The notes beneath the pieces are model-generated. The model ran no database searches. It was not told the origin of the DNA and saw only the letters and a program-made list of their open reading frames with translations. The position numbers and the translations under genes are program-made. From a virus: a stretch of 44,778 nt of DNA. Below are positions 19,401-41,748 of the stretch, piece after piece. The stretch covers positions 1-44,778 of IMG/VR virus record IMGVR_UViG_3300006919_000103; one strand, 5' to 3'. The number at the start of each line of letters is the position of its first letter. The first letter of the stretch is position 1.

Positions 19401-22400
19401 TTATTTCATTAGATATTGCTAATTGAGCATTCTTGTAAAGCTGTAACATCTTAGTTGTACTATCGCCAGCTGCTAAAACTTCTCTTTCAGTTAAATAACC
19501 TGCAGTTGTCATTTCGTCTAAATAAATTTCTAACATATCTCTCAATGCACCCATTGCATCAGAGTCTTCAGGTAGCATTTCTAATGTATCTGCAATATCA
19601 GAAATACTCTTACCAGCAAGATTGTTAAATGTTTCCATGAAAACTAAGAAGTCTAATATTGCCTTACCAACTTCAGTGTCAGTAGCATCTGGCATTTTTA
19701 CTCTGAATGCATCTGCTAAACTTGTAAATACTTGATTTAATTCATGCTCAAGAAAATCTGAACCACCAATATTTGCTATTAGTTGTTCATTTAATCCTTG
19801 GAATAAATTACCTTGTCCTATTCTTGCAGCTAGTTCATCACCTTTTATTTGTGTAAATGCAGTGTATTTATCTAATACATTAAAGAGTCCTGTACCTATA
19901 TCGGCAGAAGCAAGTCCAAATGAGTTCAAATCCATATCTGCCATTGCTTCTGTATATAAGTCTTGGAATACATTAAATGGATTATCATCTCCAATCATTG
20001 CATCAATTATTTCTCTACTTGTACCTTTAAAGTAAGATGATAAATAAGTTCCATCAATATCTTCAGAGAAGAGTAATTCATCAAATATATTTTGGAATGT
20101 AGGTATTTCACCCATTTCAAATATGCCTCTAATAGCTTCTCCAACTGGAACAGCTATTCTATCTTTTATTTGTTGTTCTGTATCACCAGTTACTTTTTCA
20201 AGTAGTTTGAAGTAGTTTTTTGCTAATGCTCCTTCATCAACTTGATTTTCAACAAGTAGCATTCCATCTAAAAATGCTTTACCTAATTGCTCAGAAATAT
20301 TTTTATTTTGTTTAGCTAATGCTTTCTCTTGCTCTTTTACATATTCTTCTAAAGTCTCAGCAATTGTAGTTTTTCCATCAGGTGAAAATACATTTTGTTC
20401 TTTTGCTAAAAGTTTTCGAGCTTCAGCTAGCTTGACTGTATTAGATTGAAGCTCTTGGAATTCGTTAGTAATTTCTCTTAATGAGTTTTTATATTCTTCT
20501 AATCCTTTTGCTTCTGCACCTGCTCTAGCAATCATCTTTATTAGTGGAGCAATTACACGCATTACAAGTAAAGCCATACCTCCAAACTTAAATATGCCTT
20601 TAAATATTCCTACAAACTTTGCACCAGCTACTGTTGCTTTATCAAAATTCTTAGCTAAATCTGCTGTAACTTTAACATCTTTACCTCTGAATTTCATAGT
20701 TTCAAATCCACCAGTAGAAGCTAACTGTCTAGATTTTTCTACCATTGCTGCTACTTCAGAATCTAATCCTCTTAGTATTAATTTTCTTCTACCTCTAGTA
20801 AAGCTCTTATTACCTTTTCCATATAATCCATCAAGGAACTCATCTAATTGTTTAGTAGCGCTTCTTTTACTTACTGGGCCAGCAGCAGTTTGTAAATCTC
20901 TTAGTTGTCTCTTAAGGTCACCTAACTTAGGTAAAGCTTCTTTAGCTTTTGTTCTATTAAGTTTAGCCTGAGCTCTTTCTTCTATTCTTAGAGCAGCAGC
21001 GTTTGCTTTTCTAGCAGCAAATTCTTTAAATTTATTAGCTAAAGTTTTCTTTTCAACCTTTTCAGCAGCTTCAGTAACTGTAACACTTGTAGCTTTTACT
21101 TTTGTTTCAACTTTTTCAGCAGCAGCTTTAACTTTTTTAATAACTGCTCCTCTAGCTTCAACTTTATTTAATCTTTCAATAATTAAACGTTGTTTTTCTA
21201 ATAATTTTGCACGCATTGCAGCAGTTCGTGATGGTTCAACTCTAAGAACATCTTGTGCTCCAGTAGAAGCTGGTAATTGTCCAAATGGTTTTTTACCATG
21301 TGCTGTTACTGGAATTCTAGGTTTTGGTGCAGGTAAAGCTTTAGGCACTCTTCCTGAAGGTAATGCTTTAGGAGCACGCAAAGCCATATTCTGTATAAAT
21401 GACCTACCCATTTTTGCAAAATCAAATTGGAAGTTACTTCTTGCGAATTGTATTAAACTCTTTAGGTTTTTAAGAATAAATCCTATACCAGCAAATGCAC
21501 CACCTAGATTAATGAATGCTGCTCCTACTCTTGCTGCTGCAGCATTTAATACATTAGAAAGTTTTACAGTTTGTAACATAATTGCATCTGATAATGCAGC
21601 ATATGCTTTATTAACTCTTTGTTGCATTCTTATTATTGCATTAGGAGGTTGAGGACCATAAGTTCCAAACCTATCAGCTCCATAAACATTTCCAGCTTCA
21701 GGGTCAAAACGTAGTTTTTGTAACCTACCTCCACCTGCTGATGGTATTTGTGTTCCTCTAGGATATTTTCTACTTGCTTCAAAGAGAGTTCCATCGCCTT
21801 TAGTACTTTCAAAGTAATTGGCATCACGTATCATCTTTCTTCTTCTATTAAGAATTTTGTCAATTCTCATTTGACGCTTAGCGTCTTCAATAACTGCTCT
21901 ATTTTCCTTTATTTGTCTAATACGTGCTCTTCTTGCAATATTTCTTGCAGCTTCAGCTCTTATATCGGCAATACCAGGACCTCTAGTAGCTGATTGTGTA
22001 ACTCTATCTCTTTGTCTAGCAAGTCTTCTAACTAACTCTTCTCTTCTTGACATTGGACGTTCTGCTAAAGATGCAAACTGTCCTCTCATGGAAGCAATTA
22101 AAGTTTGGAATATATCCTTCATTGCAGAACCAAATGCTTTGAGTGGAATTAGTAGTCTTGCTACTTGCGCATTTAAAGCGCGTAATATTTTTTCAAATTT
22201 AGTAAATAATATAATTGCTGCAGGGTAAGTAGCTTCTAGTCCCCTTGTTCCAGTTACTCCTGGAATAGTTGCTAAAGCTCTAGAGCCTGCTCTTGCAGGT
22301 AATTGTCCGAATGATTGTCTGCTTGATAATTGTAATTGTCTTGTGCCAGGTAGTTGACGCATATTTCTGGCGGAAAATAACATATCCAAAAGTTTTTGTA

Positions 22401-24672
22401 ATCTTGGAATTTTGAAGTCTGTTGGACCAGCGTATTGCCCTGAAGGTAGTTGAGGTAATTGTTTCGGCATCATGCCCCTTATGTTCCTCATCGGTCCTAT
22501 AAAAGATAATTTCTTTGCCATTCCGATTGCTTCTGTTGGAATTCCTGACAATGTTCTAAACATTGCTAATTGTGCTTTTAGCATAAGTGTTCTTAGTTTT
22601 CCAAACAATTCAGCATTACCAGATAATTGTCTTTGTATTGAATATATAAACTTATCGAATAAAGTTAAATTTTGATAATTTAAAGCACCTAGTTTTCTAT
22701 TAAACTCTAAAGCATTTTCTGCCATTTCTGTTTGGCCTTCTATAATTTCTCCAGATGCAATCTTATTTCTGTATTGTTGAATCATATCTTTTTCAGTTCG
22801 CATAGTTGTAATTGAACCTTGAGATATAATTTCGCCTGCTTCATTGTAAATGTCTGATACATTTTCTACTACTTGAGTAGTTATTTCATCAAACATTTCT
22901 TTTGTAATAGTTCCTGCTGATAAATCTCTTAGTAGTCTAGACATTATGTTTCCACCACCTTTACCAGTATCCTTATCAAATGGAGATAAAAATTCATCTA
23001 AAGTTTGTGGAGCTTTTGCTTGTATTGAGAATGGGTCAATACCTTGCATGAATGCGTCTGCTATTGGCCTATTTCTAAAATATTGTTGTCTTGCTAAATT
23101 TTCTTGTCTTCTTCTTTTACCACCTGTGAATCCAAACATATTAAGTAATCCCATTCCAGGCATAGCCATAACTTTATCCATCATTGATATTCTAGAACCT
23201 TGAAGCCCTCTCATTCCAAATCCTGCACCAGTTTTTTCGTCATATAAAACACTTGATTCAAATGATTTACCTGTAGGAACACCTCTCTGAGCAGCGACAC
23301 TATTTAAAGCATTAATACTTTCTGATGCATTTTCAAATACTCTTAAAGCAACAGCCATATCTCTTACATTCGAATTCATTTGTTTAAATACTGTTGATAT
23401 AGCTAAAAGAGGTCCTAATACTTTAGCAACAGTAAAACTTATTTTTTCAAAATTATCCATAATTAAATATGTAATATTTGATATTTCTTCAACTAAAGCT
23501 TTAGCTGTCTCTAAACTTCCAGTATCTTGTGCTAAATTTAAAAATCCTGCTGAAGTAATATTTTTTAATCTTGCTATTTGTGAAGCTAAAGTATCATATC
23601 TTCTTTCTGCTTCTAAGTTAAGTGCATTGTTTTCTATGAAAGCTCTATTAGCAGTATCTATAGCATCAAATAATGTATTGTTAGCTTTAGATAAAGCAAG
23701 TATTGCTTTTCTACTTCTGACTTGTCCTAGTCCTAATTCAGATAATATTTCTAAACTTGTCTTACCAACTTTTGATGTGTCGTCTAATCCTTTAATAAAT
23801 AAAGCAATTGCTTTTGTAGAATCAACAGCGAATAAATCTACGAATTCTTTCATAGAAACTCCAGCAGTTGCTGCGAATATTTCTAATTTACTTCCACCTA
23901 ATTCTACTGCAGTACTAGCCTCATTCATTAACCTAACTATTGCAGTTGCACCTGCTTGTGCTGGCTGACCAATAGCTCTTAAAGCAGTTGAAAAAGCTAA
24001 AGCATCTACAGCAGCATTATTTAAAGTTCCTGATATCTGTGCAGTAGCTGTAGCAATTTGCATAGCTGCATTTACAATTTCAGATTCAGTTGCAGCAAAG
24101 TTGTTACCTAAGTCAACTAATGTTGCACCTAAGTTATCTAATTCATCTACTGAACTTCCTGTTATTTCTTGAAGTCTAGCCATTGATAGTGCAGCTTGTT
24201 CTGCACCTAAGTTTGTGGCTACTGTTAATTTCTGTATTACTTTAGTAAAAGAAACAATATCTTTTGCACTTACACCTAACTGACCACCAACAGCTGCAAT
24301 CTCATTTAATTCTCTAGTAGTGACTGGAGATATTTTTGAAAGTGTTATTAATGAATCTGCAATTTGTTTGAATGCTTTATCAACATCTTTTACTTCTGGA
24401 CCAATATTTAATGTTTTCTTAACAGCTACAAAAGATTCTTCAAATCTAGATGCAGTAGCGGCAGCTATAGTCATACCACCAGCAACAGCACCAAAAGCTG
24501 CACCTGATGCAGACATTAATCCTCTTAATGTATTAGATACAGCAGCTGTGGATTGTTGTATTCTTGCAGCTTCTCTTTTTATCTGTTGGTTGGCTTGCTT
24601 TAACGTTTTATCGTCAAAGCCCATTACTATTCTAGCTTCAAGAGAATATGCTGTAACGCTATTTCTGGCCAT
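16459..24672 (-). CDS. Tail tape measure protein
   Basis: This 2737-residue protein is the largest in the window. Residues about 20-400 match the TP901-type tape measure core (RFEESFVAVKKTL, LSKISPVTTRELNEIAAVGGQLGV, ATNLGAEQAALSMARLQEITGSS). Long helical, Lys/Ala/Arg/Gln-rich stretches follow, with a hydrophobic segment near 1365-1390 (GGMALLVMRVIAPLIKMI) that could cross the membrane during DNA delivery. Near 1900-2040 are three repeats of the tape-measure type G-F-x-x-G-I...GSPSKV. The end has MGGR-rich segments and a LVGEYGPEEVRF motif typical of tape-measure C-termini. It sets tail length and assists DNA entry. At about 0.15 nm per residue the tail would be roughly 410 nm, unusually long. 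It lies after the chaperone frameshift pair, as expected. Confidence 0.95.
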   Translation of the reverse strand: MARNSVTAYSLEARIVMGFDDKTLKQANQQIKREAARIQQSTAAVSNTLRGLMSASGAAFGAVAGGMTIAAATASRFEESFVAVKKTLNIGPEVKDVDKAFKQIADSLITLSKISPVTTRELNEIAAVGGQLGVSAKDIVSFTKVIQKLTVATNLGAEQAALSMARLQEITGSSVDELDNLGATLVDLGNNFAATESEIVNAAMQIATATAQISGTLNNAAVDALAFSTALRAIGQPAQAGATAIVRLMNEASTAVELGGSKLEIFAATAGVSMKEFVDLFAVDSTKAIALFIKGLDDTSKVGKTSLEILSELGLGQVRSRKAILALSKANNTLFDAIDTANRAFIENNALNLEAERRYDTLASQIARLKNITSAGFLNLAQDTGSLETAKALVEEISNITYLIMDNFEKISFTVAKVLGPLLAISTVFKQMNSNVRDMAVALRVFENASESINALNSVAAQRGVPTGKSFESSVLYDEKTGAGFGMRGLQGSRISMMDKVMAMPGMGLLNMFGFTGGKRRRQENLARQQYFRNRPIADAFMQGIDPFSIQAKAPQTLDEFLSPFDKDTGKGGGNIMSRLLRDLSAGTITKEMFDEITTQVVENVSDIYNEAGEIISQGSITTMRTEKDMIQQYRNKIASGEIIEGQTEMAENALEFNRKLGALNYQNLTLFDKFIYSIQRQLSGNAELFGKLRTLMLKAQLAMFRTLSGIPTEAIGMAKKLSFIGPMRNIRGMMPKQLPQLPSGQYAGPTDFKIPRLQKLLDMLFSARNMRQLPGTRQLQLSSRQSFGQLPARAGSRALATIPGVTGTRGLEATYPAAIILFTKFEKILRALNAQVARLLIPLKAFGSAMKDIFQTLIASMRGQFASLAERPMSRREELVRRLARQRDRVTQSATRGPGIADIRAEAARNIARRARIRQIKENRAVIEDAKRQMRIDKILNRRRKMIRDANYFESTKGDGTLFEASRKYPRGTQIPSAGGGRLQKLRFDPEAGNVYGADRFGTYGPQPPNAIIRMQQRVNKAYAALSDAIMLQTVKLSNVLNAAAARVGAAFINLGGAFAGIGFILKNLKSLIQFARSNFQFDFAKMGRSFIQNMALRAPKALPSGRVPKALPAPKPRIPVTAHGKKPFGQLPASTGAQDVLRVEPSRTAAMRAKLLEKQRLIIERLNKVEARGAVIKKVKAAAEKVETKVKATSVTVTEAAEKVEKKTLANKFKEFAARKANAAALRIEERAQAKLNRTKAKEALPKLGDLKRQLRDLQTAAGPVSKRSATKQLDEFLDGLYGKGNKSFTRGRRKLILRGLDSEVAAMVEKSRQLASTGGFETMKFRGKDVKVTADLAKNFDKATVAGAKFVGIFKGIFKFGGMALLVMRVIAPLIKMIARAGAEAKGLEEYKNSLREITNEFQELQSNTVKLAEARKLLAKEQNVFSPDGKTTIAETLEEYVKEQEKALAKQNKNISEQLGKAFLDGMLLVENQVDEGALAKNYFKLLEKVTGDTEQQIKDRIAVPVGEAIRGIFEMGEIPTFQNIFDELLFSEDIDGTYLSSYFKGTSREIIDAMIGDDNPFNVFQDLYTEAMADMDLNSFGLASADIGTGLFNVLDKYTAFTQIKGDELAARIGQGNLFQGLNEQLIANIGGSDFLEHELNQVFTSLADAFRVKMPDATDTEVGKAILDFLVFMETFNNLAGKSISDIADTLEMLPEDSDAMGALRDMLEIYLDEMTTAGYLTEREVLAAGDSTTKMLQLYKNAQLAISNEITDANKKMQDEFGITAEMSLRLAIKAKEAFKQIREAATALGKPLEDAELTDVSFGKLLNNLQDNRKAIEAYEKDIAQLRAKGFEFTADRLLQMGLGGRDIAARALEDPMAAQALEFELIKTAPATASDVGVKSPLMDDAYMDQMNNLGIQITESFVKGIEDGFPIIRQMFGEMGEEVVAALREALGFGSPSKVMIQFGNWTSGGFAQGIKEGIPKTELAMQDMAKNSAEAFRAILGINSNSKLFTQYGQNVANGFVDGLRGAFGSAGGVNAAFDDFAELIKRFGGNVEAFSAFIASTYGEGNFQTFLEAFMAGVSTKAQKYTSDQQKAFQMVTQLTGAERARNSALLNVMQSKAAYAKQLRDEASLQDRIGDTLERLNKLEQEGKQGNVTVKERIGILQKLLSLREMEKRAAGEYTAKEALAIQDKEQEVNTLARMYDKGVISALEFQAAQEELSEMKGEFKTQEDKELFFLQLADAQTEYEDAQAAALKIDQELVSTREEYFGLLDEQEQMTLRVKTAQDKYSAATEGAVEADLALTSAILYFEENIGPHIDTLSTLAESYGAITTEVDGLIDALEKYKEGSIDSIFGPDGAEITKPSIYDENKNKAVEEEFNEYVSDVNTAQLGDKMSYQEAMNTFKGSFEEAGLLDEYQKFIYNPLLSPIFKQGTALNMESNRLREEEQFMTNADLKNIKNILDVFNNQGLNRIFREESGTTILKQFIESLGLNLTRKTDGSGYTFFEKNLKSVEDKLGISLGKFLENFGDTFTGITKQSADEMSSSAKNQAYIEKVLSGSPVHQEMDMGVEVANDNGTIYVPPGSAYPAVYINSAGEERIVTNDAARQAALRAGYRDTGRRPSGYVPQGMMGLRTKGYKMGGRIPDMSHIKPKKYAMGGRTQDHMMKRALVGEYGPEEVRFVPGSGFLVKPLTTGGRGNNTIVQNLSVNVTGIPVDNASARKAAIQIKKALQRLDREGNAGGGIRNV

Positions 24673-25437: not shown

Positions 25438-26097
25438 TTAGTTGACATCAAATGTTGTTGTGTCGTTAGTGTTATCAACAATCTTGAAAAGGTGATATTT
25501 ACCACCTGTGCTTCCAACGTTAAATGTTGAATCAGGAACTAACAACTTAAACTCAGTTGCAATTACCACTTTTTGTGGAGCCTTTGCGTGTGACATTGAG
25601 AATGCACCGACTGATACTACTCTAGGCATTTGAACATGTCTGTCTGCACCTGCTGGTCCTTCTGCAATTAGCAATGCTGCTAATTCGCTGAAAGAGTCAG
25701 TAATAGGTGCTTTGACAACATCATATCCTGCTGCGTAGTCTGAATCGTCTTCACTGACATAACTGTCAGTTTGTCCCATTGCTACTGAAAGGTTTTTAAG
25801 TGAAGCTTGTGAAAGTTCACCCATTAGTCTTGCTTCCTGAGCAGTTTTAATGGTTTTAATTGGGTCTATTTCTTCTGCAACTAGAATGTCCTCGAAAGTT
25901 CTATCCATTTCGAGAGTCCAACCATCTTCAGAATATCCAATGTCTCTCCAAGATGCTGATGCTGTTGAAACGCTTTCAAAAGCGCTTGAACCATCATCAC
26001 CTGGATAAGCTAATCCTGAAGCAGCTCTATCTGCAACATAAAGAACACCAGTACCAACTAATACCTCATTAATTGCACCACTTGTATATGTAGCCAT
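25438..26097 (-). CDS. Major tail (tube) protein
   Basis: This 219-residue protein has the order and style of siphovirus tail tube subunits: GTGVLYVADR near the start, WRDIGYSEDGWTLEMDR at about 50-66, EDILVAEEIDPIKTI at about 69-83, and a C-terminal beta region FKLLVPDSTFNVG. It is well placed between the tail terminator region and the chaperones. Subunits stack as hexamer rings around the tape measure. No C-terminal Ig-like decoration domain is visible; the protein ends soon after the tube domain. Confidence 0.88.
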   Translation of the reverse strand: MATYTSGAINEVLVGTGVLYVADRAASGLAYPGDDGSSAFESVSTASASWRDIGYSEDGWTLEMDRTFEDILVAEEIDPIKTIKTAQEARLMGELSQASLKNLSVAMGQTDSYVSEDDSDYAAGYDVVKAPITDSFSELAALLIAEGPAGADRHVQMPRVVSVGAFSMSHAKAPQKVVIATEFKLLVPDSTFNVGSTGGKYHLFKIVDNTNDTTTFDVN

Positions 26098-26492: not shown

Positions 26493-26963
26493 TTATACAG
26501 CTCGATACATCATTGCAATACCTACATCGTATCTACCTAAACCAGTTTGATTTTCATTTACTCTTGTAGGCATTTGAGGAATATCTATACCAATGATTTT
26601 TGCTCTAGTTGATGTAGTGTCTGTTGTGATATATTCATTTTCCATATTGAAACATTCTTGTACTATAGCGTTAGCAACTTCCATAGCTTTTCCATAATCA
26701 GGAGCTGATGTATTTCCATCTCCACCCCACTGTCCTGCAAAACATTGAACAGGTATAATTGCTGATTGTATATGTACTTGTGATGTTGGTCTTACTAAAC
26801 TACCACCAGCTCTTTGAAAAGTTATAAAAGGCATTTCAGCATCTCTTGGTAATCTTGTAGCTATTCTTGTTCCAACTAAATCAGTTATGCTTGTTTTATT
26901 AAGCAAAAACTGTCTGAAAATAATTTCAGCGTCTGGTGGTACTGGTTGGTTAGTTGTAGGCAT
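26493..26963 (-). CDS. Tail terminator / tail completion protein
   Basis: This 156-residue protein resembles tail terminators (lambda gpU, DUF3168-type): an N-terminal helix (AEIIFRQFLLNKTSITDLVGTRIATRLP), a strand region MPFITFQRAGGS, the strand SAIIPVQCFAG followed by a long helix (AMEVANAIVQEC), and a final strand RYDVGIAMMYRA. It lies directly before the tail-tube genes and after the giant neck protein, with a TAATG overlap at its 3' end reversed into the upstream gene. It would cap the finished tail tube and form the joint to the head. Confidence 0.8.
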   Translation of the reverse strand: MPTTNQPVPPDAEIIFRQFLLNKTSITDLVGTRIATRLPRDAEMPFITFQRAGGSLVRPTSQVHIQSAIIPVQCFAGQWGGDGNTSAPDYGKAMEVANAIVQECFNMENEYITTDTTSTRAKIIGIDIPQMPTRVNENQTGLGRYDVGIAMMYRAV

Positions 26964-29900
26964 TAATAGCTCCGTAGTTGTCTATTTGCTTTATTTTTAT
27001 AATAGTAAAATATATCTCGAATTGAGTTATTTGAAGTATCTAAACCTTTTCTACCATTAAGCTCTGCTTCAAGTAAATGTAATCCAACTCCAGGATGAGT
27101 AAGAAACTTTTCAATAAATACTTTTTTGTTTTGTTGAACTGAACCACCTTTACCTTTTCTTGCTTCATTTACTAAAGATAATATAAATCTTTTAGCATCT
27201 TCATATCCAACTTTTTGGAAATATGCACCTATTACACCTTCAAATTTAGAATATTCAATTGCACCAAGACCAGTATGACCAGTTCTTAATCTTGTTTGTT
27301 TAAAGTTATCGTACAAAGAGCCTTCAGGGTCCACAAATAAATGTAAGTCTTTATCAAAAAAATCTTTAGCTAAATTTTCAGGAGTTAATATTTCTGATAT
27401 TGCATTGTTTGTAAATGATGAAAAATTAACAACATCTTCAGGTAGCTTACCTTGTTTGTTTTTAAATTTTTCACTAGGAGAAACTTTTCTAGCATCGTGT
27501 ACGTGGACACCAGAACCATCTCTACTTCTACCATCAATAGAGCCAATATTGTCAAGATGTGGTGTTTTTCCTTTTCTTTCATAATACGCCATAAGTTTTT
27601 CAGCATAGATACCTTCTCTGGTACTAAAACTAAACTTGTAAGATAGTTGTCTAGCTATTTCTTGTGTTCCTTGATATGCAGCATCATCTTCAAAAATAAT
27701 TTCTTTCATTTCTTTTATAACTTCGTCCATGTCTGCACCAGAAGTTATACTCACTACACCTTTTTCTACTTTAATATTGTCAGATTTGTAATTTACCTTA
27801 TTTACAGTGTTACCAACAAAATCATCATCTAATTCACGTTGTGCAATTCTATCGTCTTCTTCAATAGCTTGTTGAATAACATCTTGTAATCCTTCTTCAC
27901 CAATTTGTATAACTACATCTGAATCTATTACTTTTTCAATAATTCTATTTGTATTCATATTATTAATAATAAATCTTGATTTATTAACATCTAATAAACT
28001 TTGTGCTACTTTTAATTTATCTTGATGGGTTCTTGCCATGTCGAATGCTGCTTTTAATAAACCTGTAGTATCAGTAGTAGCTGCAAACCCTTGCTCTAAA
28101 AGAATTGAAGTTCTTTCTAATGCATTCATCATATTTCCTGGAGTATCAAAAGAACCTCCAGCAGATAATCTTGACCAAACGGTTTGTATTGCATTACCTA
28201 CTTTACTTGCAGTACTTGCAGCAATATATCTAACCTTTTGCTGAATTATAGCTCTTTCACTTTCTGGTAACATTTTCATAACATCTTTTAAAGCTTTTTC
28301 CATTTCTGATAAATATAAAGTTGTTAAATTACTTTTAGCTCTACCGCCAGAAAGTGCTTCTCTAATCATTCCAATTTCTGAATTAGGTCCTTGTGGTAAA
28401 CCTATCATTGTTTGGTAATTAGGTATTTCTATCCTATTCAAACCAATTGCATTAGCCAATCCTTTTCTAACTTCAGAGGCTCTAGTTCCAATCATATTTT
28501 TTAATGTTTGAAACTGATTAACTCCTAACAAACCTTGCATCATAAATTCAGAGTTATTTAATAAATCTCCTACTGCTTGTGTATATTCAGGTTGAAATTT
28601 ACCAATTCTAGTTCTAGTATTACTTAAATATCTTCTAGCTTCATCACTATTTGTTCTTAATAATCTTTTATATATCTGTGCATCAAACACTGGCATATAA
28701 GGAAGTCTTCCAACTATACTTTGACCTTCTACTTCATATACGCTTGTATGTTGAGCAGGAGTAATTTCTGTCATTTTCCCAGTAGATTTACTCATAACAA
28801 ATCCACCACCTATGCCAGCTTGTCCTATTTGTCTTTTAACTATACCTAAAGAGGTCATATTAAATTCTCTAGCACCCATTCCTGCTAAACCTTCAGCTAA
28901 AAATCTATCCTGAGATTCCATCAGTAAAGAATTAGGGTCAATAAACCTATCATTACCAACCATACCATCAGCCTTTCCTTCCATTGTTTGAAATGCTTTC
29001 ATACTTCTTCTATTCATAGCTCTCATAACTTCATCTTGAGAACGTCTAGCAAATTTTCTTTGAGCAGCAATAAAAGCATTTTGAGCACGTCTTAAATTCT
29101 TTTGTCCTTTTCTAATCTCTTTTAATCCTCTATCAGTTTGACGAGCATCCATTCTTGCTCTTTTACGATTTGGGTCAGTATCTTTAAGATACATTGTCAT
29201 ACTTCTACCTAATGATTTTTCATTATTTTTTACTACATTTCCAGGGTCTAAACCTAAATAAGCAGCTGACTCTATAGCAGCTCTTGTAAAGAAATAAGAA
29301 GGTAAATAAAACATGCCATCTGTTCTTCTAGAATATCCACCACTAGAATCTGTAGCTGGTCCACCATATTCAAGCGCCACTATATCTCTAACAGCATCTG
29401 CTTTTACATTTCTTTTAGCATCAGAAGTACCAGCTACAACTGCTGCTGCAAGCATACCTGGACCTTTTCTAGCTTCCTTGCTGTTTAAAGGAATAATATG
29501 TATAGATTTAGCAATATCTAATTTATTAGGTATGAAATTGTCTTCACCAGGTTTTCTTGTTCTTCTGTTTTCACTTCTTCTTTGGGCTTCGTTACTAACA
29601 GTAACTCCACCTTGAAATGCATTGCCTGACCTATTCCAACCTGTAAGTTCGTTTGGTATTTGTGAACCTTCCATTAAGGCAGTAGCAAATTCATGTCCTT
29701 TATCTGGTCTAGACTGTAGAACTCTATGAGCACTAAAATTTCCTGTTATATCACCATGTTTACTAGTACCTACTTTCATTTTTAATCCTTCAGCTTCAAT
29801 CATTTTTGAGTGAGCATTAATTTTTTGAATGTTAACGGTTTTTTTATTATTACCCATTCCATTAAACTTCATAGACATAGCACCTTTGACAAGTTCAGAT

Positions 29901-31975
29901 TCTATATGGGTTAACATTGCTAACTCATATTTTAAAGATTGTATTCCCCTACCGTAAGAAGCTTCTACTCTAGGGTCGTTAATAATTTTTCTTAAATTTT
30001 CTACTTTTCTTTTAATAGCACTTTGTAAACTGCCATCTATTAAGTTTATACTTCTTATAGTTCCATCACCTGCATCAATTTTTATATGTTCTTTAATATT
30101 TTGAATTTTGTAAGCTTTACCACCTTGAGTTATATATCTTTCTCCATTAATAACAGTACTGTTACCTTTTTTAGCAGCTGTAAGAGCTCTTCTTTTATTT
30201 TCCGCATATCGCAAAGATTGGTAACTTCTATAATATCTTTGTTTATTAATATCTCTTTCGTCATCGTAATAAAAATGTAATGCTGATTCTACTACTCCCA
30301 TACCTCCTGATTTCATGTGAGGACTATAAAAATAGTTTCCTAACTTTGTTCCAGTTTTAGTATTTACCATACCTCCACCACCTCTCAAATGTTCTACAAG
30401 CTCATTATTCGCAGCTTGTCTTACCTTTATTAAATCTCCTTCTATTAAATTTTTGTTTTGGAAAAATGCTTCACCTAAACCACCAGTTACAGACCTTAAA
30501 TCTGAATCTAAATTACCAGCAGTAAGTGAAAACTCTAAAGCTTCTAAAGCTCCTGTTTGTCCTAATTCTTTTAATCCTTCTTGAGAAACTATCATTTTTG
30601 TTAATGCATCTGACAAACTTGTCATTCCTAATTTATTTACTTCTCTTGTAAAATTGACAATACTTTTTACTTGAGTGTTAAAGTTTAAAGTTGCATTTCT
30701 TGCAGCTTTTGCAAAATCTGTTGTGTCTAAACTCATAGTAATACCAAGATTACTTAGAGACATAAGTAGTTGGTCAATAGTTGCACCTGGTGTATTATTA
30801 CCTACTGTTTGAGAGCTAAATCCAAGTTCTACTGCTAAATTGTTTACCAATCCTGCAAAAGTAGGGTCATTCATACCTCCTTGCATTGCTTGCTTAAGCC
30901 TAGGCTCAGTATTGATAGCTTCTTTTAACCCAGTGTGTATATTTTTATTTGCAAAAGTCTCAAGGTCATCTGTAGAATAACCAGCTAGCATACCATTATA
31001 AGGATTTCTTATTTCATTAATTCTGTAACTATCTTGGCTCAAATTATATCTATTTCCAACTCCATCAGCTCTGTCTATACCAGACTGTGCATAATATGCC
31101 TGTACTGTATTAGTTCTTCTTGCCTTATGAGCTGCTCTAGCTTGTTTAGAAAGATTAGTTCTTAAATGAGCAGAGTCTTTATCTATTGTTTCTAACATGT
31201 AGTTCATCATTTGGTTATCCATTACACTTTTTATATGTGCTTCAGGATTAGTAAATGCTCCTACTTCTAACCCACCCATTATTTGTTCAAATCTTTCATT
31301 AGCCATCATTATGTGTTCATTTTTTGAATCTACAATTCCTTGTCTTGCATTTAAAGTAAATGGAGTAATTTGTCTAGAATTTTTACTTCTTGCCATGTAT
31401 TGTTTAGCTTGCATAAATGCATTATTTCTTATTGGGTCAGGAGCTCCAGTAATAGCTCTCATATAAGTAGCCATTTGCCAGTTGTGTAACATGTTCTGTT
31501 GAGTTGGTCTTCTAGCTTGCTTTTGTATTTCTCTATCAACGACTTCTGGATTAAAAAATGCTTTAAGTGCAGCTTTCTTACCTGCACCTCTGTTAATTTG
31601 TTTTATAACTCCTCTTGATTGTCTACCAAAATATAAACTTGTATATCTATCAATAGCTCCTATATTTGTTTTAGGTAGTGCTCCTCTTGCTTTTGGAACA
31701 ATATTTTTAGCATAAGATAAAACACCAATACGTTGAGCTGATGGCATTAATGAACCAGTTGTTGCAGTTTTACTAAACCTTTTAAATGTGTTCATTGTTT
31801 GTTGTATATCATAAGGTAAAGAAACCAAACCAGCCAATGGAACACCAAGCATACGCAACGTAGACATGTTGTAACCTATTGCGTATCTTAATTCGGAACC
31901 TCTAAGATTTTTAAGAGATTTAAATAAACCTACTCTTCCAGGTCCTGCAAATAACGCAGGTCTTGGAATAGCCAT
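26963..31975 (-). CDS. Giant 1670-aa neck-region protein, gp10-like element suspected
   Basis: This 1670-residue soluble protein sits where siphoviruses encode a small (100-150 aa) HK97-gp10-type neck or tail-completion protein. Near residues 845-910 there is a stretch LAAAVVAGT...VRDIVALEYGGPATD...FYLPSYFFTRAAIESA that matches the gp10 pattern (VGT, EYG, then P..F.R.A..). The rest is not recognised: a basic N-terminus (about 1-170), long helical Arg/Lys/Ala/Gln segments (about 930-1010, 1130-1330), an acidic helix at about 1365-1390, and a C-terminal region with GVHVHDARKVSP and a FVDPEGSLYDNF segment. Start and stop both overlap neighbours by one base. It may be an internal head or ejected protein fused to a neck domain. 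Function unknown. Confidence 0.8.
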   Translation of the reverse strand: MAIPRPALFAGPGRVGLFKSLKNLRGSELRYAIGYNMSTLRMLGVPLAGLVSLPYDIQQTMNTFKRFSKTATTGSLMPSAQRIGVLSYAKNIVPKARGALPKTNIGAIDRYTSLYFGRQSRGVIKQINRGAGKKAALKAFFNPEVVDREIQKQARRPTQQNMLHNWQMATYMRAITGAPDPIRNNAFMQAKQYMARSKNSRQITPFTLNARQGIVDSKNEHIMMANERFEQIMGGLEVGAFTNPEAHIKSVMDNQMMNYMLETIDKDSAHLRTNLSKQARAAHKARRTNTVQAYYAQSGIDRADGVGNRYNLSQDSYRINEIRNPYNGMLAGYSTDDLETFANKNIHTGLKEAINTEPRLKQAMQGGMNDPTFAGLVNNLAVELGFSSQTVGNNTPGATIDQLLMSLSNLGITMSLDTTDFAKAARNATLNFNTQVKSIVNFTREVNKLGMTSLSDALTKMIVSQEGLKELGQTGALEALEFSLTAGNLDSDLRSVTGGLGEAFFQNKNLIEGDLIKVRQAANNELVEHLRGGGGMVNTKTGTKLGNYFYSPHMKSGGMGVVESALHFYYDDERDINKQRYYRSYQSLRYAENKRRALTAAKKGNSTVINGERYITQGGKAYKIQNIKEHIKIDAGDGTIRSINLIDGSLQSAIKRKVENLRKIINDPRVEASYGRGIQSLKYELAMLTHIESELVKGAMSMKFNGMGNNKKTVNIQKINAHSKMIEAEGLKMKVGTSKHGDITGNFSAHRVLQSRPDKGHEFATALMEGSQIPNELTGWNRSGNAFQGGVTVSNEAQRRSENRRTRKPGEDNFIPNKLDIAKSIHIIPLNSKEARKGPGMLAAAVVAGTSDAKRNVKADAVRDIVALEYGGPATDSSGGYSRRTDGMFYLPSYFFTRAAIESAAYLGLDPGNVVKNNEKSLGRSMTMYLKDTDPNRKRARMDARQTDRGLKEIRKGQKNLRRAQNAFIAAQRKFARRSQDEVMRAMNRRSMKAFQTMEGKADGMVGNDRFIDPNSLLMESQDRFLAEGLAGMGAREFNMTSLGIVKRQIGQAGIGGGFVMSKSTGKMTEITPAQHTSVYEVEGQSIVGRLPYMPVFDAQIYKRLLRTNSDEARRYLSNTRTRIGKFQPEYTQAVGDLLNNSEFMMQGLLGVNQFQTLKNMIGTRASEVRKGLANAIGLNRIEIPNYQTMIGLPQGPNSEIGMIREALSGGRAKSNLTTLYLSEMEKALKDVMKMLPESERAIIQQKVRYIAASTASKVGNAIQTVWSRLSAGGSFDTPGNMMNALERTSILLEQGFAATTDTTGLLKAAFDMARTHQDKLKVAQSLLDVNKSRFIINNMNTNRIIEKVIDSDVVIQIGEEGLQDVIQQAIEEDDRIAQRELDDDFVGNTVNKVNYKSDNIKVEKGVVSITSGADMDEVIKEMKEIIFEDDAAYQGTQEIARQLSYKFSFSTREGIYAEKLMAYYERKGKTPHLDNIGSIDGRSRDGSGVHVHDARKVSPSEKFKNKQGKLPEDVVNFSSFTNNAISEILTPENLAKDFFDKDLHLFVDPEGSLYDNFKQTRLRTGHTGLGAIEYSKFEGVIGAYFQKVGYEDAKRFILSLVNEARKGKGGSVQQNKKVFIEKFLTHPGVGLHLLEAELNGRKGLDTSNNSIRDIFYYYKNKANRQLRSY

Positions 31976-32325
31976 TAGTCAAATAAGTGTGCTGAAGCTA
32001 CTACACCAATTATATTTCCTGACCTGTTTTTAGATTTTCTTATAGAATCAATCTCATAATAAATATTTGAATCAGAAGAGCTCTGAAATCTATCATTTGC
32101 TTTTACGTCTACATTTCCATGAAAGTAAATTGTAAAATTTTCAAGTACTGTATTTCTGTCTCCTTTGGCTTCTGTTGTACCAGCTGAATCTATTTTACAA
32201 GTAACCCCATTTAAATGAGATTGCCATGACTGACTTTCTATTCCACGTTCATCAACAGTAGTCTCTGAAATTCTTTGAACGTTTATAGTGTCTCTAAATA
32301 ATCTTTTATGTAGTTGACCTGCCAT
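31975..32325 (-). CDS. Head closure (stopper) protein
   Basis: This 116-residue beta-rich protein has the pattern of phage head-tail joining proteins (SPP1 gp16 / PF05521 style): LFRDTINVQRISETTVDERGI at the start, then NGVTCKID, a strand LENFTIYFHGNVDVKANDRF, YYEIDSIRKSKN, and IIGVVASAHLF at the end. It follows the connector and precedes the giant neck gene, as in other siphoviruses, and would seal the portal after packaging and bind the tail. Confidence 0.8.
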   Translation of the reverse strand: MAGQLHKRLFRDTINVQRISETTVDERGIESQSWQSHLNGVTCKIDSAGTTEAKGDRNTVLENFTIYFHGNVDVKANDRFQSSSDSNIYYEIDSIRKSKNRSGNIIGVVASAHLFD

Positions 32326-32353: not shown

Positions 32354-32971
32354 TTATTGTGTTTTGAGTTTTAATGCTCTTTTAGCTCTTCTACTTTTAG
32401 ACTTACAATTTTTACAAAAATGAGATTTTGAATCAAAACTTCCTAGTGATAAATCTTTTCTGCACATCAAACAAGTTCTTTTACTAGGAGTTTCTTTTTT
32501 ATTATTTTTTATACTTTCAATACAATTTATACAAAACTTGTTATAACCATCTTGATATTTTTGTGTCCTACTAAAATTATCTATAGATTTTATTTCTTTA
32601 CACAATGAACATTTTTTTTCATTCGGGTCAAGTCTTTTAGCTTTTGCAGTAGCTTGTGCTTCTTGTATTCTTTTTGCAACATCTATATCATCTCTCATCC
32701 ATGTGTGAAAAGCATCTCTTCCTATAGGTAAGTCTTCAAATGTTTTTAGGTTAGTTAGTGATGAAATGTTATTTTCTATAAGATATGCTACTTTTTCAAC
32801 AATTTCATAATCTACACTAAATACAGCACCAAGTCCACATTCATGCCGTATTTGTCGTACTCTTTCTGAAGATATACCCCATTCATCAGCGAATTGAGAT
32901 AAAGTTTTATTAGGCTCTTTTAAAAATAAAGCTTTTGCTTCTTCTAACGTAGGTGCTTTTCTATTAGGCAT
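32354..32971 (-). CDS. HTH and double Cys4 zinc-finger protein inserted in neck module
   Basis: This 205-residue, Lys-rich protein has a helix-turn-helix near residues 23-45 (LSQFADEWGISSERVRQIRHE, like sigma-4/LuxR-type recognition), a second helical part at 55-110, and two Cys4 zinc sites: C121/C124 with C147/C150, and C167/C170 with C186/C189. The first zinc module (CSLCKEIKSIDNFSRT...C..C) is of the type that often accompanies phage HNH nucleases, but no HNH residues are present. It separates the connector from the head-closure gene, so it looks like a moron or a decayed homing element. It probably binds DNA; regulator or nuclease accessory are both possible. Confidence 0.75.
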   Translation of the reverse strand: MPNRKAPTLEEAKALFLKEPNKTLSQFADEWGISSERVRQIRHECGLGAVFSVDYEIVEKVAYLIENNISSLTNLKTFEDLPIGRDAFHTWMRDDIDVAKRIQEAQATAKAKRLDPNEKKCSLCKEIKSIDNFSRTQKYQDGYNKFCINCIESIKNNKKETPSKRTCLMCRKDLSLGSFDSKSHFCKNCKSKSRRAKRALKLKTQ

Positions 32972-32985
32972 AGCCTAATTATATC

Positions 32986-33639
32986 TTATAAAAAGAAAGT
33001 TTTTCTATATTTACCTAAAATTTGTAGGTCAGCACCAGCTAATAAAGTTACTGAATTCATACCTATATTTCCAACATAACTTATTGAATAATCTCCTAGA
33101 GATTCTGAGTCTGCTGCGGTGAAATTTGAAACTTGGGAAGATGATTGTGCTACTATTTCACCAGCTTCTTGTTGTGCTGATAATACTAATTGTGACTCTA
33201 GTAACCTAGCTGAAGCTCTAGCACTTACATATTTAAATGCATTAGGTAGTGTTCTACCTTGTCCTCCACCTGTATTATATCCAGCAGTATAAGTAACTGT
33301 TATATTATCTGGATAAGCAAAAGACCATCTACTACCTATTCTTCTAATACGTCCATTCTCATACCATAAATAATCTTCTTGATTTCCGTATGTAAGAGTA
33401 GTTCCGTCTTCAACTACAGATGTAACACTAAGTACTGGTCTTTGTTCTAAAAATAGTTCTTTAGTTTGATTACCTGAGAATGTTTCTGTATGAGTAGCAT
33501 AATCTACGTCATAGCCAACATACTCTCTAATAGCGTCATCTATTAAAGGTATTATATTATTAGTTAAATGTGTTTCTAAATCAGAATGAAAATCAATTAA
33601 TGCAAATGTTTCAACATCTGCAGCAGTTGAGAAAGCCAT
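32986..33639 (-). CDS. Head-tail connector (adaptor) protein
   Basis: This 217-residue protein matches the gp6/gp15-type adaptor pattern: an N-terminal helix pair (FSTAADVETFALIDF, NNIIPLIDDAIREYVGYDVDY), strand motifs FSGNQTKELFLEQRPVLSVTSV and DNITVTYTAGY near 115-125, then the helix PNAFKYVSARASARLLES. The adaptor forms a ring on the portal and receives the head-closure protein. It follows the capsid genes as expected. Confidence 0.85.
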   Translation of the reverse strand: MAFSTAADVETFALIDFHSDLETHLTNNIIPLIDDAIREYVGYDVDYATHTETFSGNQTKELFLEQRPVLSVTSVVEDGTTLTYGNQEDYLWYENGRIRRIGSRWSFAYPDNITVTYTAGYNTGGGQGRTLPNAFKYVSARASARLLESQLVLSAQQEAGEIVAQSSSQVSNFTAADSESLGDYSISYVGNIGMNSVTLLAGADLQILGKYRKTFFL

Positions 33640-34321: not shown

Positions 34322-35578
34322 CTATATGTTTGTTATAGAACAGAATGCTGTTGGGCGATATACTACAAAGCCAAGACGCATAGTTAATCTAATTGCCAAT
34401 TGGTTCTTTGCGAAGAAATCGCTATGGCTGTCGGAAACAGCTAGGTCAACGCCTTCTCTCATTACTACTTGAGCTGCGTCACCACCACCAAACTTACCAA
34501 CTAAAGCTGTACCTTCAGCAATAACTGTTGAAGGAACTACTCTAAGACCCCAAATTCTTGGAGTCACATCAGCACCAAATCCGCCTGCTACAACGAAAAG
34601 AGGATTCTTAGCAGCATAACCTGCTGAATCTGTTCCTGCAAAATCGTTGACAGCTGTTACAATTTGATACCAGTCAGATGGATGCATTACGATAGAATCT
34701 GCTTCTACGAAAGCATCTTTTCTGATTTCTGTGATTGCTTGATAAATTTGTCCTAACTTACCAAGTTCCCCACCATATGGGTCACCTGTGTAATCGAATG
34801 TATTGATACCTGATTTGTTCAATACACCTGTTAGGTTTGGAGCTGTACCGTTACCATTAATTAATTGATTATCCAAGTTCAATCTCATCATTGTTTGTAA
34901 ACGTGAGTTGACATATCCTTGAATACCAGAGACGTCAGCTAACAACTCGTCAGTTACAGGTAAGAATGTAGCCATCTTTCTGATGGATTCTGTTCTTTCT
35001 GTAAATGCAAGTGCTGATTCGTTTGCAGTGGAGATATCTCCTGATTCTGCAATAGAACCTGCATTGTTAGTGAAAGTTGTCTCTTCTAAGTAAACCCAAG
35101 CGTTTTGTTGTGTTTGAATTTGGTCAAACAAACCTATAACGCTATCTGGATTACGAAGAGCGGTCTCTAGGATTCCTGGAGCTCTCATGCTCTCTGGTGG
35201 ATAACCAGTTGTATTTAAAGTTGTTTTGAATTCTGCTTGAGAATCTACACCTTTAACGCCATTTTCCAAGTATGCATTATATGCTTTTGATTCAGCAAAT
35301 TGTTGTCCAATAGATTTTGGACCATTTTGTGATTCAGGCATAGCATTTGGGATAGCATTGACAGGTGCTTCTGCAGCAACTTCCATTGCTTTCTCATTAC
35401 GAGCTTTTGATTCTTCGATTTTTAAATCTTCAACAAGTTCTGCAAGTTCAGAGTTGAGGCCTTTGATTTTCTCTTTGGCTTCAGGTGTGTACTTGCCGTC
35501 TTCTGAAGGAACGAAAGCTTCTTTAAGCTCTTCACGAGATTTAGCTATTTGCTCTTTGAGCTCTTTAACTTTACTCAT
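34322..35578 (-). CDS. Major capsid protein, HK97 fold
   Basis: This 418-residue protein has a helical, charged N-terminal region of about 105 residues (VKELKEQIAKSREELKEAF), which is the delta/scaffold domain usually cleaved by the prohead protease. The capsid body follows: ESMRAPGILETALRNPDSV at about 128-147, an E-loop region with TESIRKMATFLPVTDELL at about 190-210, LDNQLINGNGTAPNLTGVLN at about 234-255 (typical HK97 motif), HPSDWYQI near 297, and the C-terminal NQLAIRLTMRLGFVVYRPTAF. This order is diagnostic of HK97-type capsids. It follows the protease gene and is followed by a GC-rich hairpin. Confidence 0.95.
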   Translation of the reverse strand: MSKVKELKEQIAKSREELKEAFVPSEDGKYTPEAKEKIKGLNSELAELVEDLKIEESKARNEKAMEVAAEAPVNAIPNAMPESQNGPKSIGQQFAESKAYNAYLENGVKGVDSQAEFKTTLNTTGYPPESMRAPGILETALRNPDSVIGLFDQIQTQQNAWVYLEETTFTNNAGSIAESGDISTANESALAFTERTESIRKMATFLPVTDELLADVSGIQGYVNSRLQTMMRLNLDNQLINGNGTAPNLTGVLNKSGINTFDYTGDPYGGELGKLGQIYQAITEIRKDAFVEADSIVMHPSDWYQIVTAVNDFAGTDSAGYAAKNPLFVVAGGFGADVTPRIWGLRVVPSTVIAEGTALVGKFGGGDAAQVVMREGVDLAVSDSHSDFFAKNQLAIRLTMRLGFVVYRPTAFCSITNI

Positions 35579-35613: not shown

Positions 35614-36783
35614 TTAGAGGACAGGCTCGTCCTCTTCTGTTATGTCAATATCCACTGTGTCAGCTAATAATTGCTGACCTTCTGACCACTCGGCATCAAA
35701 ACCATCGTCAAAGGATTCACTGTTATCATCTGCAACGGCTTCAGGTAATTCAACTTCAGGTTCCTCTGAAGATTCTACCTCTTCTACAGCCTCAACGTCA
35801 TCAGATGGGTCTTCATCTTCAATGTCGTCTTCAACAGGTTGTTGTTCTTCTACTTCTAACTCCAAAGCACCTTCAGTTCCAACGTTTTCGATAAATTGGT
35901 CTAATTCGACCCATGCATCATTTAAATCGTCTTGTACTGCTCTTAGCGCTTCAGTTGCTTTTACTCCGAGGCTTCTTCCATCTTTAGCACGCAACATCGC
36001 AATGGCGGTAGCTCGTACCATCAAGTCGTTCAATGCAGCAAGCACATCTTTGACTTGTTCTGAGAAAGTTTGACTTTTCTCGGACACCTCTATTTCTTCT
36101 TCAGAATCTTGTGCATCTATCAATTCTTTTAGATAAACCGCAGGGTTTTCTAACATTTTTGCACAATGTTCACAAGTTTCAGCATTTGCATTGTGTGCAA
36201 CTACTGGCTCTTCAGAAGATTCAGATTCTTCTTCTTTTTCAAAAGATTCAGAACCTAAAACATTTTTAACTTCATCTTCAACTAAATCTTCTAGTAATTC
36301 TTTATTGGATTTAATTGCCATAGTATAAGTCTCTTGGTTTGCACCAACTAATACTGGTGAAACTTCAAAGACTGTTAAATCTTTTAAATATCTTGCGTCA
36401 ACTTCTTCATCTGAATTAGCACTTTTAAAAGGTGCTCTTTCAGCATCATTGACTCTATAACCGAATGACCATTGTTGCATGTCACCCATGTTTTTTACTA
36501 TTTTATAAGCTTCTTGTCCAGAATCAGTATCTAAGAAAAACTGACCATTAAAGGTAGCTTTTCCTTCGTCTTCTTCAATTCTTCCTTTACCAATTGGCAT
36601 GTCCCATTTATGAGCCCATACCATAGGGACATCACCAGATTTAAAACCTGATTTGATTGAACCTGGGAGAACAACATCTCCATCGGAATCTAGACTATTG
36701 AATACTGAAAATACGGCAGAAACTTTACCTTCGGCATCGTCCTTCAATTCGAAGTCGATTGCCTTTACTTCTTTTTCAGACAT
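35614..36783 (-). CDS. Prohead protease with acidic C-terminal extension
   Basis: This is a 389-residue protein. Residues 1-165 are an HK97-type (U35) prohead protease: FSVFNSLDSDGDVVLPG, the catalytic His in WAHKW (about H58) and Ser in QWSFGYRV (about S106), then LKDLTVFEVSPVLVGANQ. Family proteases are often 180-220 residues. Here about 220 more residues follow, very acidic (many EE/ED runs), with a TCEHCAKML segment near 213 and a helical part at 250-300 (DVLAALNDLMVRATAIAML). The extension could act as a scaffold for head assembly. It has an AGGAGA ribosome site and a palindrome just upstream. Confidence 0.9.
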   Translation of the reverse strand: MSEKEVKAIDFELKDDAEGKVSAVFSVFNSLDSDGDVVLPGSIKSGFKSGDVPMVWAHKWDMPIGKGRIEEDEGKATFNGQFFLDTDSGQEAYKIVKNMGDMQQWSFGYRVNDAERAPFKSANSDEEVDARYLKDLTVFEVSPVLVGANQETYTMAIKSNKELLEDLVEDEVKNVLGSESFEKEEESESSEEPVVAHNANAETCEHCAKMLENPAVYLKELIDAQDSEEEIEVSEKSQTFSEQVKDVLAALNDLMVRATAIAMLRAKDGRSLGVKATEALRAVQDDLNDAWVELDQFIENVGTEGALELEVEEQQPVEDDIEDEDPSDDVEAVEEVESSEEPEVELPEAVADDNSESFDDGFDAEWSEGQQLLADTVDIDITEEDEPVL

Positions 36784-39702: not shown

Positions 39703-40919
39703 CTAGTAAGCTGTCCATTCTCGTCTAGTTTGTACTGACTGTGCTGCGAGACCCAGAGCATCGACTTGGTCGTCATGTGCTCCAACAGGAAAAGTCAATA
39801 ACTCTCTCTCTAATTCCGTAAGCCAAGCTGAATCTTTACGAAACATAACTTCGCCTGCCTCCATCCTAGCACTTAGTGGTAAAGCTTTGGTTATTTTATC
39901 CTTTTCTGCACGCATTTCTTTTACACGCAATCCTGCCCTTTGCGCTTGTTGTATAAATGCTTTTGAGAATCCCTGATTTTCCATAAGTACATATCTCCAA
40001 TTATGTTTATGAGATTGTCTTTGCATTGCAGGAACAATATCAGGTCCCTCCATTTTTACTCTTACTAAATCTTCTAAGAAAAGTTGATTACTAGGAGTTC
40101 TTGCAAAAGACATTATTACTGTATAGTCAGAAGATTTTTCAGTAGTAACTGCAACATCAACTGCTCCAAAATGTTCTAAATCATTTGGGTCCCATTGTCC
40201 TCCACCACCTACATAAAAACCATTTGTATTTACATCAAAATAAGATACCCACTCTGGTTTAAATAGTCCTTGTCCTGCTTCTACAAATTCTGCCATATAT
40301 TCTTGTGCATAGACAATAGAGCCTACTTCTCTTTTTGCTGATTCTAACTCTTCAGGGTCAATAGCAGGATTATCAAGTGTGGTAAATCTAAATCTTTCCC
40401 AATTATCTTGTTCTCCAGCAGTTTCCCAAAGGTCATAAAACCAATTACCAATACCAAGTGGAGTACTAATAAATAATGCAGAACCTTTTCTTTCAGTTAA
40501 GGTAGGTCTTAATACTTCTTGCCAAACTTCTGGCTTTACGAATGCTGCCTCATCAATAACAATAAAATCTAAACCTTCACCTCTTAGACGTTGAGGATTA
40601 TCAGCAGACTTACAAGCAATAAAACCACCATTTGGAAAAAGAACTTCCATGTTAGCGATTGAAACTTTTGGTTCAATTTCTCTAGGAAAGGACATTGCTG
40701 CTGCTTCGAGTGCTCTCCAGCCAACCCTAGCAATAGAAAAAGTAGGAGCAACCCACCAAGCTCTTCCACCATTAAGGGCAGTTTGGAGACATAATTAACA
40801 CCAAGTCTAGTCTTACCAAACCTACGACCAGCACAAAGTATTTTCCAACGTGCATCACTTTCTGCAACTTTTTTTTGTGCTTCATGTAATGAAGGTAATT
40901 CTGGTGCGTATATTGGCAT
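39703..40919 (-). CDS. Large terminase subunit (TerL), split by one-base frameshift
   Basis: The ATP-driven packaging motor is present in two frames. Frame 1 from ATG 40919 gives the start and Walker A (GRRFGKTRLG, residues 31-40), then loses sense. From about 40794 the -1 frame reads LCLQTALNGGRAWWVAPTF and continues through SFPREIEP, Walker B (DFIVIDEAAF), motif III (ISTP), and the RuvC-like nuclease residues (DVAVTTEKSSDYTV; HDDQVDALGLA) to 39703. Adding one base restores a 405-residue TerL, normal in length. The break lies at GTTAATTATG; the expected sequence would be GTTAATTTATG. No X-XXY-YYZ slippery heptamer is present, so a sequencing or assembly deletion, or a real mutation, is most likely. 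The ATG at 40695 (MSFPR) is internal. Confidence 0.9.
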
Positions 40920-41372: not shown

Positions 41373-41748
41373 ATCTCCCCAAGTAAGCTCTTACAAACTT
41401 AGTGTACTCTCTTTTTTGTCCAGATATTGTTTTACCATCAAAAATATCGTGATGAAATTTACAAAAGATAGCCACATTACCTTCATCATTAGAGATGTCT
41501 CTATTTTTGCCTCCCATCCCAATTCCAGTAATGTGTGCCATCTCCAGCCACTGTGTATCGTTGCATTCAGGCCACTCACACCTGTAATTTGCACGTTTCA
41601 AAGCTTTTTCACGAAGTGCAGATTTATTTATTTTTCCTGTCCCTTCTCGCTTTTTTTGTCCCATACCAGATATACCATGAGACTTGCTTCTTCGTTTTTT
41701 AAATTCTGAATATGTTTCGTTTTCTGAATCCCACTCTACTCTAGACAT
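41365..41748 (-). CDS. HNH endonuclease, packaging-associated
   Basis: This 127-residue protein has a basic N-terminus and an HNH fold at residues 55-105: zinc ligands C57 and C62 (CEWPEC), the HNH start LEMAHITGIGMGG (H72), N91, and C96..H99-H100 (FCKFHHD). HNH proteins beside TerL, like HK97 gp74, stimulate terminase cutting at cos sites. The position two genes before TerL and the normal length support that role here over a homing nuclease. It overlaps the glycosyltransferase gene by eight bases. Confidence 0.85.
   Translation of the reverse strand: MSRVEWDSENETYSEFKKRRSKSHGISGMGQKKREGTGKINKSALREKALKRANYRCEWPECNDTQWLEMAHITGIGMGGKNRDISNDEGNVAIFCKFHHDIFDGKTISGQKREYTKFVRAYLGRYA

Follow-up and report, generated by a model that had tools for sequence, protein, structure and literature searches.

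A probable tail completion protein of 1670 residues in the neck gene slot of an uncultured siphovirus

Introduction

Tail completion proteins (TCPs, also designated Neck1 or Ne1) are present in most siphoviruses and are encoded between the head closure (Hc1) and tail terminator (Tc1) genes. The described members are small, with reported sizes of 56-231 aa (Lopes 2014, PMC4362835) and 112-255 aa (Auzat 2024, PMC11099176), and full-text searches, of incomplete literature coverage, returned no title or abstract describing a TCP near 1000 aa. The slot is occupied by a 149-aa 'HK97 gp10 family protein' in HK97, by gp51 of 115 aa in 80alpha, and by proteins of 85-139 aa in the actinophages PFR1, Teagster, HunterDalle and Nicky22. 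In lambda gpZ, a TCP of only 192 aa in total, the apex carries an additional inserted domain (PMC11661146), while p143 of T5 is an atypical, larger TCP (255 aa) predicted in part with low confidence.

The position of TCPs in the virion and the way they steer DNA are contested. The TCP of 80alpha is enclosed by the neck, where it has the DNA end on one side and the tape measure on the other and turns a positive face toward the DNA (PMC11661146), while that of T5 has been proposed to lie beside the tail tip (PMC11784142); in the structures of SPP1 and lambda, the TCP has not been seen. In SPP1, the TCP aids assembly of the tail terminator and is later needed for the ejected DNA to enter the cell rather than the medium (PMC11099176). 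Here we describe a 44,778-nucleotide stretch of viral DNA (IMG/VR record IMGVR_UViG_3300006919_000103; hereafter the window) in which this slot holds a single gene, encoding a protein of 1670 aa.

Results

Gene content of the window

The reading of open frames in the window identified a 1670-codon frame on the minus strand at 26963-31975, where the plus strand carried stops throughout. The gene overlapped by one base with each of its two neighbours on the same strand, namely the gene for the head closure/head-tail joining protein at 31975-32325 (PHROG 615 head-tail adaptor, E 4.6e-08) and that for the tail terminator at 26493-26963 (PHROG 123, E 7.8e-06), the latter also matching Pfam Tail_completion_gp17 under the cut-off. 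The order of the region was terminase, portal (36871-39702), prohead protease (35614-36783), major capsid protein (34322-35578, minus strand; PF05065, E 5.4e-35), head-tail adaptor (32986-33639, minus strand; PHROG 442, E 2.5e-23), head closure protein, giant protein, tail terminator, major tail protein of the Ig-domain type (25438-26097, minus strand; PHROG 2175 and 476), chaperone, and a tape measure protein of 2737 aa (16459-24672, minus strand; TIGR01760, E 9.3e-20; PHROG 13339, E 3.3e-65). As this is the HK97-type order of head and tail genes, the giant gene occupies the slot between head closure and terminator as named, the position by which TCP/Ne1 proteins are recognised. Its length lies outside the described range of 56-255 aa, a range that is descriptive of TCPs rather than defining. 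The original prediction, made from the sequence alone, had placed a 1670-aa protein exactly here and had regarded the usual occupant as small; both points were borne out, the isolated phages with similar capsids having proteins of 85-155 aa in the slot.

A WhiB gene was found at 44422-44721 (PF02467, E 3.2e-21), and the G+C content was 32-40%. These two features point to a low-G+C actinobacterium as the putative host; phages with WhiB genes and a G+C content of 33.6-36.5% have already been described for marine 'Ca. Actinomarinales' (PMC7771536). A capsid query against GTDB species genomes detected no relative. The viruses with giant TCPs are a large uncultured aquatic group whose hosts are probably actinobacteria.

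Several other features were noted. The large terminase gene (39703-40919, minus strand) was split into two overlapping frames of 111 and 330 aa, while relatives carried one intact frame of 404-406 aa; this is probably a sequencing or assembly frameshift, or else a genuine disruption. The portal carried a long extension at its C-terminus (residues 543-943) that contained DUF3721 and weakly matched DUF5824, and a similar segment of 40-65 residues occurred in several relatives in a portal-adjacent ORF at the protease position, so that a small domain seems to move between both proteins. The protein encoded at 32354-32971, between the adaptor and head closure genes, had a helix-turn-helix-like start and an endonuclease VII/HNH-like zinc region; it was kept in most relatives and absent from some (e.g. 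L023 and L048), and a similar 177-aa protein was accompanied by a WhiB-like gene in this interval of L183. A GlcNAc-type glycosyltransferase (41741-42727; PF11397, E 3.8e-18) and an AIPR-like protein (42914-44095; PF10592, E 1.5e-05, barely over the cut-off) were encoded near the packaging genes, and a 252-aa protein at 7000-7758 showed a strong match to PHROG 7084 (E 6.3e-74) and a weak one to DUF6065.

Slot proteins of related viruses

When used as a query in sequence searches, the giant protein retrieved almost nothing because it evolves fast; between the window and L009, the capsid proteins are 87% identical and the giant proteins only 51%. The relatives in IMG/VR were collected by capsid queries rather than with the giant protein. 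Every locus with both neighbours present encoded exactly one protein in the slot. This inspection of the same slot in related phages, which the original prediction had proposed, detected 40 distinct giants of 1047-1774 aa along with 17 small proteins of 310-376 aa, and none of intermediate length. The giants comprised clade A, the subfamily of the window (34 proteins, 1108-1774 aa), and clade C (6 proteins, 1047-1238 aa), while the small proteins made up clade B, whose capsids are 56-63% identical to that of the window. The frame was open and conserved throughout the relatives that have the slot, and the dN/dS ratio of the giant gene against a near-identical contig was about 0.4 (0.016/0.041), so that a chance open frame can be dismissed.

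A tblastn search with the giant, one clade B and one clade C protein against 50,697 phage records gave no match, indicating that this collection holds no relative of the giant. In L190, whose capsid is about 50% identical, a 175-aa gene lies close downstream of the capsid gene, and its product was the only one to pass the PF04883 gathering cut-off. A second giant form was seen in L168, L178, L204, L223 and L226; here an unbroken TCP domain forms the N-terminus and is followed by about 750-900 residues that had no detectable homology to the extensions of the window protein. Two clade B contigs, L233 (85,160 b) and L247 (81,955 b), exceeded twice the length of most of the others and may represent larger genomes, proviruses with host flanks, or joined assemblies.

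Two conserved blocks separated by variable additions

The alignment of 25 clade A proteins identified only two conserved blocks, which contained all 11 invariant columns. The N-terminal block (residues 1-182; 31430-31975, minus strand) had a length of 163-205 aa and the gp10-like core (residues 805-911; 29243-29563, minus strand) one of 96-112 aa in all 25 members. Between them lies an insertion (residues 183-804; 29564-31429, minus strand), absent from the sister clades, of 622 aa in the window protein and 240-623 aa across the subfamily. The core is followed by a C-terminal extension (residues 912-1670; 26966-29242, minus strand) of 759 aa in the window protein and 571-895 aa across the subfamily. 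These additions, about 1,400 residues in total, had no invariant column and vary fast among close relatives, with identity falling to 33-46% in the most variable bins of 150 codons versus 81% in the N-terminal block. The consensus of the core, roughly NYVPxRxQIQKxIH...VxFGG....ADxIRDAxQIExGGPATD....RTD..YxPSLFM..AA..A, is reminiscent of the gp10 pattern TGxLxxSI....YxxfxEfGT....PFxrPA.

The short gp10-like pattern that the original prediction had noted around residues 850-910 thus falls within one of the only two conserved blocks. The rest of the protein had been called unrecognised; indeed, the regions outside the two blocks matched no family in Pfam, PHROG, NCBIfam or the PDB. Searches of the same four resources with the giant and its relatives gave chance-level matches at most, and PDB lines to influenza haemagglutinin were discarded as coiled-coil noise.

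Profile chain to tail completion proteins

Direct comparison of the giant with PF04883, PHROG 5 and gp10 profiles gave no match. The PF04883 gathering cut-off was not reached, and the giant was therefore not filed as a member of that family. The profile comparison with HK97 gp10 suggested in the original prediction returned nothing when run with residues 805-912, and hhalign comparison of the giant family in seven segments with gp10 proteins stayed at noise level. Neither TIGR01760 nor PhageMin_Tail was matched by the giant, the tape measure being the separate gene at 16459-24672; no similarity to tape measure or minor capsid families, the outcome named beforehand as counter-evidence, was found.

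The connection was instead obtained through the sister clades. In hhalign comparisons, with E-values given for single comparisons, the giant core matched the N-terminal domain of clade C (probability 93%, E 2.6e-7), the N-terminal block matched clade B (96-97%, E 2.1e-9; E 1.5e-11 against two sequences), and clade C matched clade B over 225 columns (98.8%, E 1.4e-16). Column-shuffled controls were far below all three matches. An independent search of whole contigs with the HMM of the N-terminal block also detected the clade B slot gene in three contigs (E 2.8e-13, 8.7e-7 and 1.7e-6). In clade C, the match to the N-terminal block stops at column 169 and that to the core starts at 189, at the site where clade A carries its insertion. 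The chain indicates that the N-terminal block and the core are the halves of one domain, continuous in clades B and C; at the level of profiles, residues 1-182 and 805-911 were shown to be colinear with the 310-376-aa clade B proteins.

The clade B proteins in turn carry the motif APKKTGNLRKSI, of the APxxTGNLxxSI type, and the motif AAPKKTGNLRKSI. The slot gene gave the only match, a modest one, to PHROG 5 'tail completion or Neck1' in the contigs L183 (E 1e-3) and L184 (E 7e-4). A comparison of clade B with eleven gp10-type proteins gave a modest match (hhalign p 0.008), reached equally by one of 60 shuffles.

The giants share with HK97 gp10, SPP1 gp16.1, lambda gpZ and 80alpha gp51 (PDB 9mu2) the gene slot, the profile chain through the sister clades, and the motif order of a TGNLxxSI-like helix, a hairpin, a YxxxxEFG-like segment and a PxxF helix. 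They differ from these proteins in their length, in the splitting of the domain by the insertion (in the window's subfamily), and in the C-terminal extension. The 622-aa insertion precedes the TGNLxxSI-like helix, and the 759-aa extension comes after the domain. The insertion begins where the helix preceding the TGNL motif ends, and may occupy the same region as that of gpZ. Even T5 p143 is six to seven times smaller than the giant.

On a capsid tree, clade B formed one group and clades A and C interleaved, suggesting recombination between head and neck genes. The C-terminal extensions of clades A and C had no detectable mutual homology, and neither the insertion nor the C-terminal extension was found as a separate gene in the clade B loci and contigs examined, some of which may be incomplete. 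The enlargement could have happened once, long ago, with the proteins diverging very fast since then, or repeatedly, with neck genes being exchanged.

Structure models

Two models, of a giant relative and of a clade B protein, had mean pLDDT values of 51 and 56, and are thus of low confidence. In the model of a relative, the core was built as helix-hairpin-helix-strand-helix with a pLDDT of about 70. The weak clade B model ran from helices through a hairpin and a short helix to a final helix at the C-terminus, in the same order as 80alpha gp51 (PMC11661146). The order of elements in both weak models was consistent with the TCP fold (long helix, beta-hairpin, short helix, C-terminal helix). A Foldseek search of BFVD with the clade B model gave as top match the tail protein of Staphylococcus phage 3MRA (152 aa, E 0.019, prob 0.84), annotated as 'tail completion or Neck1 protein', followed by P10 of phiL7 (155 aa, E 0.076). 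The genes of both proteins sit between head closure and tail terminator genes. The TM-scores of these viral-library matches were low, about 0.34 of the target. Searches of the PDB retrieved nothing with either the clade B model or the whole L048 model, including the solved TCP 9mu2. Repeated weak matches of the L048 model to the C. perfringens O-GlcNAcase (E 2 or worse) were judged to be chance. For the shortest clade A giant, the low-confidence model was mainly helix with hardly any strand outside the core, and the L048 model contained a compact C-terminal domain at about residues 975-1095 (pLDDT ~77).

Composition and tape measure length

The net charge was positive in 39 of the 40 giants, with means per 100 residues of +2.6 in clade A and +7.7 in clade C, whereas the other ORFs of the same loci had a median of -2.7 per 100 aa. 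Cysteine amounted to 0.22 per 1000 aa in clade A and 0 in clade C, compared with 5.05 in the other ORFs. The lack of cysteine is common to the giant and the tape measure of the same virus (0.00 per 1000 aa), and the long external tail proteins of this virus were also low in it (~1 per 1000). Its fibre-type and other large tail proteins were acidic, with net charges of -183, -65, -38 and -20.

The tape measure had 1197-1266 aa in the phages with small TCPs and 1002-3147 aa (median 2188) in those with giant TCPs. Excluding L068, which has a truncated tape measure, TCP length correlated with tape measure length (Spearman 0.82 over 24 genomes, 0.69 within the giants). The correlation was also found in 12 collapsed lineages (Spearman 0.78, p 0.003), a rough collapse that corrects incompletely for ancestry. 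The tape measure reaches 2737 aa in the window and up to 3147 aa in L011; at the usual scale of 0.15 nm per residue, these lengths imply that the tail measures at least about 400 nm, which is very long for the genome size. By a simple volume estimate, one copy of the giant (184 kDa, ~220 cubic nm) would occupy a 4-nm lumen over a length of about 18 nm. The inside could therefore accommodate one copy or very few, but not six; six copies amount to about 1.1 MDa, too large for the neck interior.

Discussion

The giant gene product is very probably a siphovirus TCP of the HK97 gp10, SPP1 gp16.1 and lambda gpZ type, enlarged about ten-fold. This identity is supported but not proven; it draws on the slot, the profiles and the models in combination, and no single line is decisive. 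An enlarged gp10-type neck protein had been foreseen, and this view found its support through the sister clades, while the direct match between giant and gp10 failed. That failure, with the giant core and gp10 proteins aligning at noise level, is what could speak for an unrelated structural protein, such as a second ruler or an internal head protein, having replaced the TCP and acquired a gp10-like motif by convergence. We regard such a replacement as improbable in view of the colinear profile chain to the 310-376-aa proteins of the same slot and the constant core length of 96-112 aa; moreover, the lineage would then have no TCP, and no other gene takes the slot. Nothing except the odd size favours an artefact of assembly or gene calling, and dozens of independent contigs with the same length class, the one-base overlaps with the neighbours and the purifying selection on the gene make this explanation extremely hard to maintain.

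The location of the additions is less certain. The original prediction had considered a head-internal or ejected protein built onto a neck ring, a large collar, or an enzyme carried in the virion. A neck ring is doubtful, as gp51 of 80alpha, the only protein of this type with a solved structure, was resolved inside the neck (PMC11661146) and a monomeric state, next to the tail tip, was proposed for the T5 protein (PMC11784142). Between the other structural options, the composition leans, without proof, to a part inside the head or lumen or one that is ejected. The additions could also be exposed outside as a neck collar or whisker, or as a tail-side or tip structure like that proposed for T5 p143 (PMC11784142), aiding attachment or DNA routing; their fast evolution (33-46% identity against 81% in the N-terminal block) and a size that is easily placed outside would fit. 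We consider this a minority possibility, since the additions are basic and, in the model, helical, whereas the fibre-type and large tail proteins of the virus are acidic, no Ig, lectin or carbohydrate-binding domain was found, and a correlation with tape measure length would be unexpected. Delivery of an enzyme or toxin into the host together with the DNA could be imagined from the large unrecognised regions and the compact C-terminal domain in L048. However, Pfam, NCBIfam and PHROGs yielded no enzyme signature, and the additions lack invariant columns where an active site should be conserved, so that this role also seems improbable.

We thus moderately favour, as the best overall explanation, an enlarged TCP with a split domain and internal, expelled additions. 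The composition, the helix-rich model and the scaling with the tape measure, taken with the TCPs of 80alpha and SPP1, favour internal over external additions; the internal location itself is suggested by two observations only, the composition and the tape measure correlation. The additions may accordingly represent an internal extension contacting DNA or the tape measure. In the corresponding mechanism, which as a whole we hold to be nearly as probable as its failure, the TCP core would sit at the head-tail junction, help the tail terminator to assemble, and keep the tape measure and the end of the DNA in place until the envelope of the host opens, as is thought for TCPs. The basic, cysteine-poor and mostly helical additions would lie in the lumen, either following the DNA upward through the portal or following the tape measure downward. 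At infection they would be expelled and would help to route the DNA into the cell. Large size, a helix-rich structure and exit from the virion with the DNA are likewise known from tape measures and from the ejection (pilot) proteins of phages such as P22 and T7. The resemblance is an analogy only, as these proteins have no sequence match to the giant and another gene position. A more tentative suggestion is that this siphovirus lineage turned its TCP into a very large internal pilot or ejection protein in the neck plug, which scales with the tape measure and leaves with the DNA.

The identification as a TCP would account for one of the larger proteins that lack an annotation in this aquatic virus group. 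A TCP of 120-195 kDa should be visible by cryo-EM and easily detected by proteomics, which matters for a protein class whose place and action are contested. The sister clades with small and giant TCPs form a natural pair that reveals the minimal machine. If the tentative suggestion is true, a pilot protein in the neck plug would be a hitherto undescribed way to route DNA into the cell.
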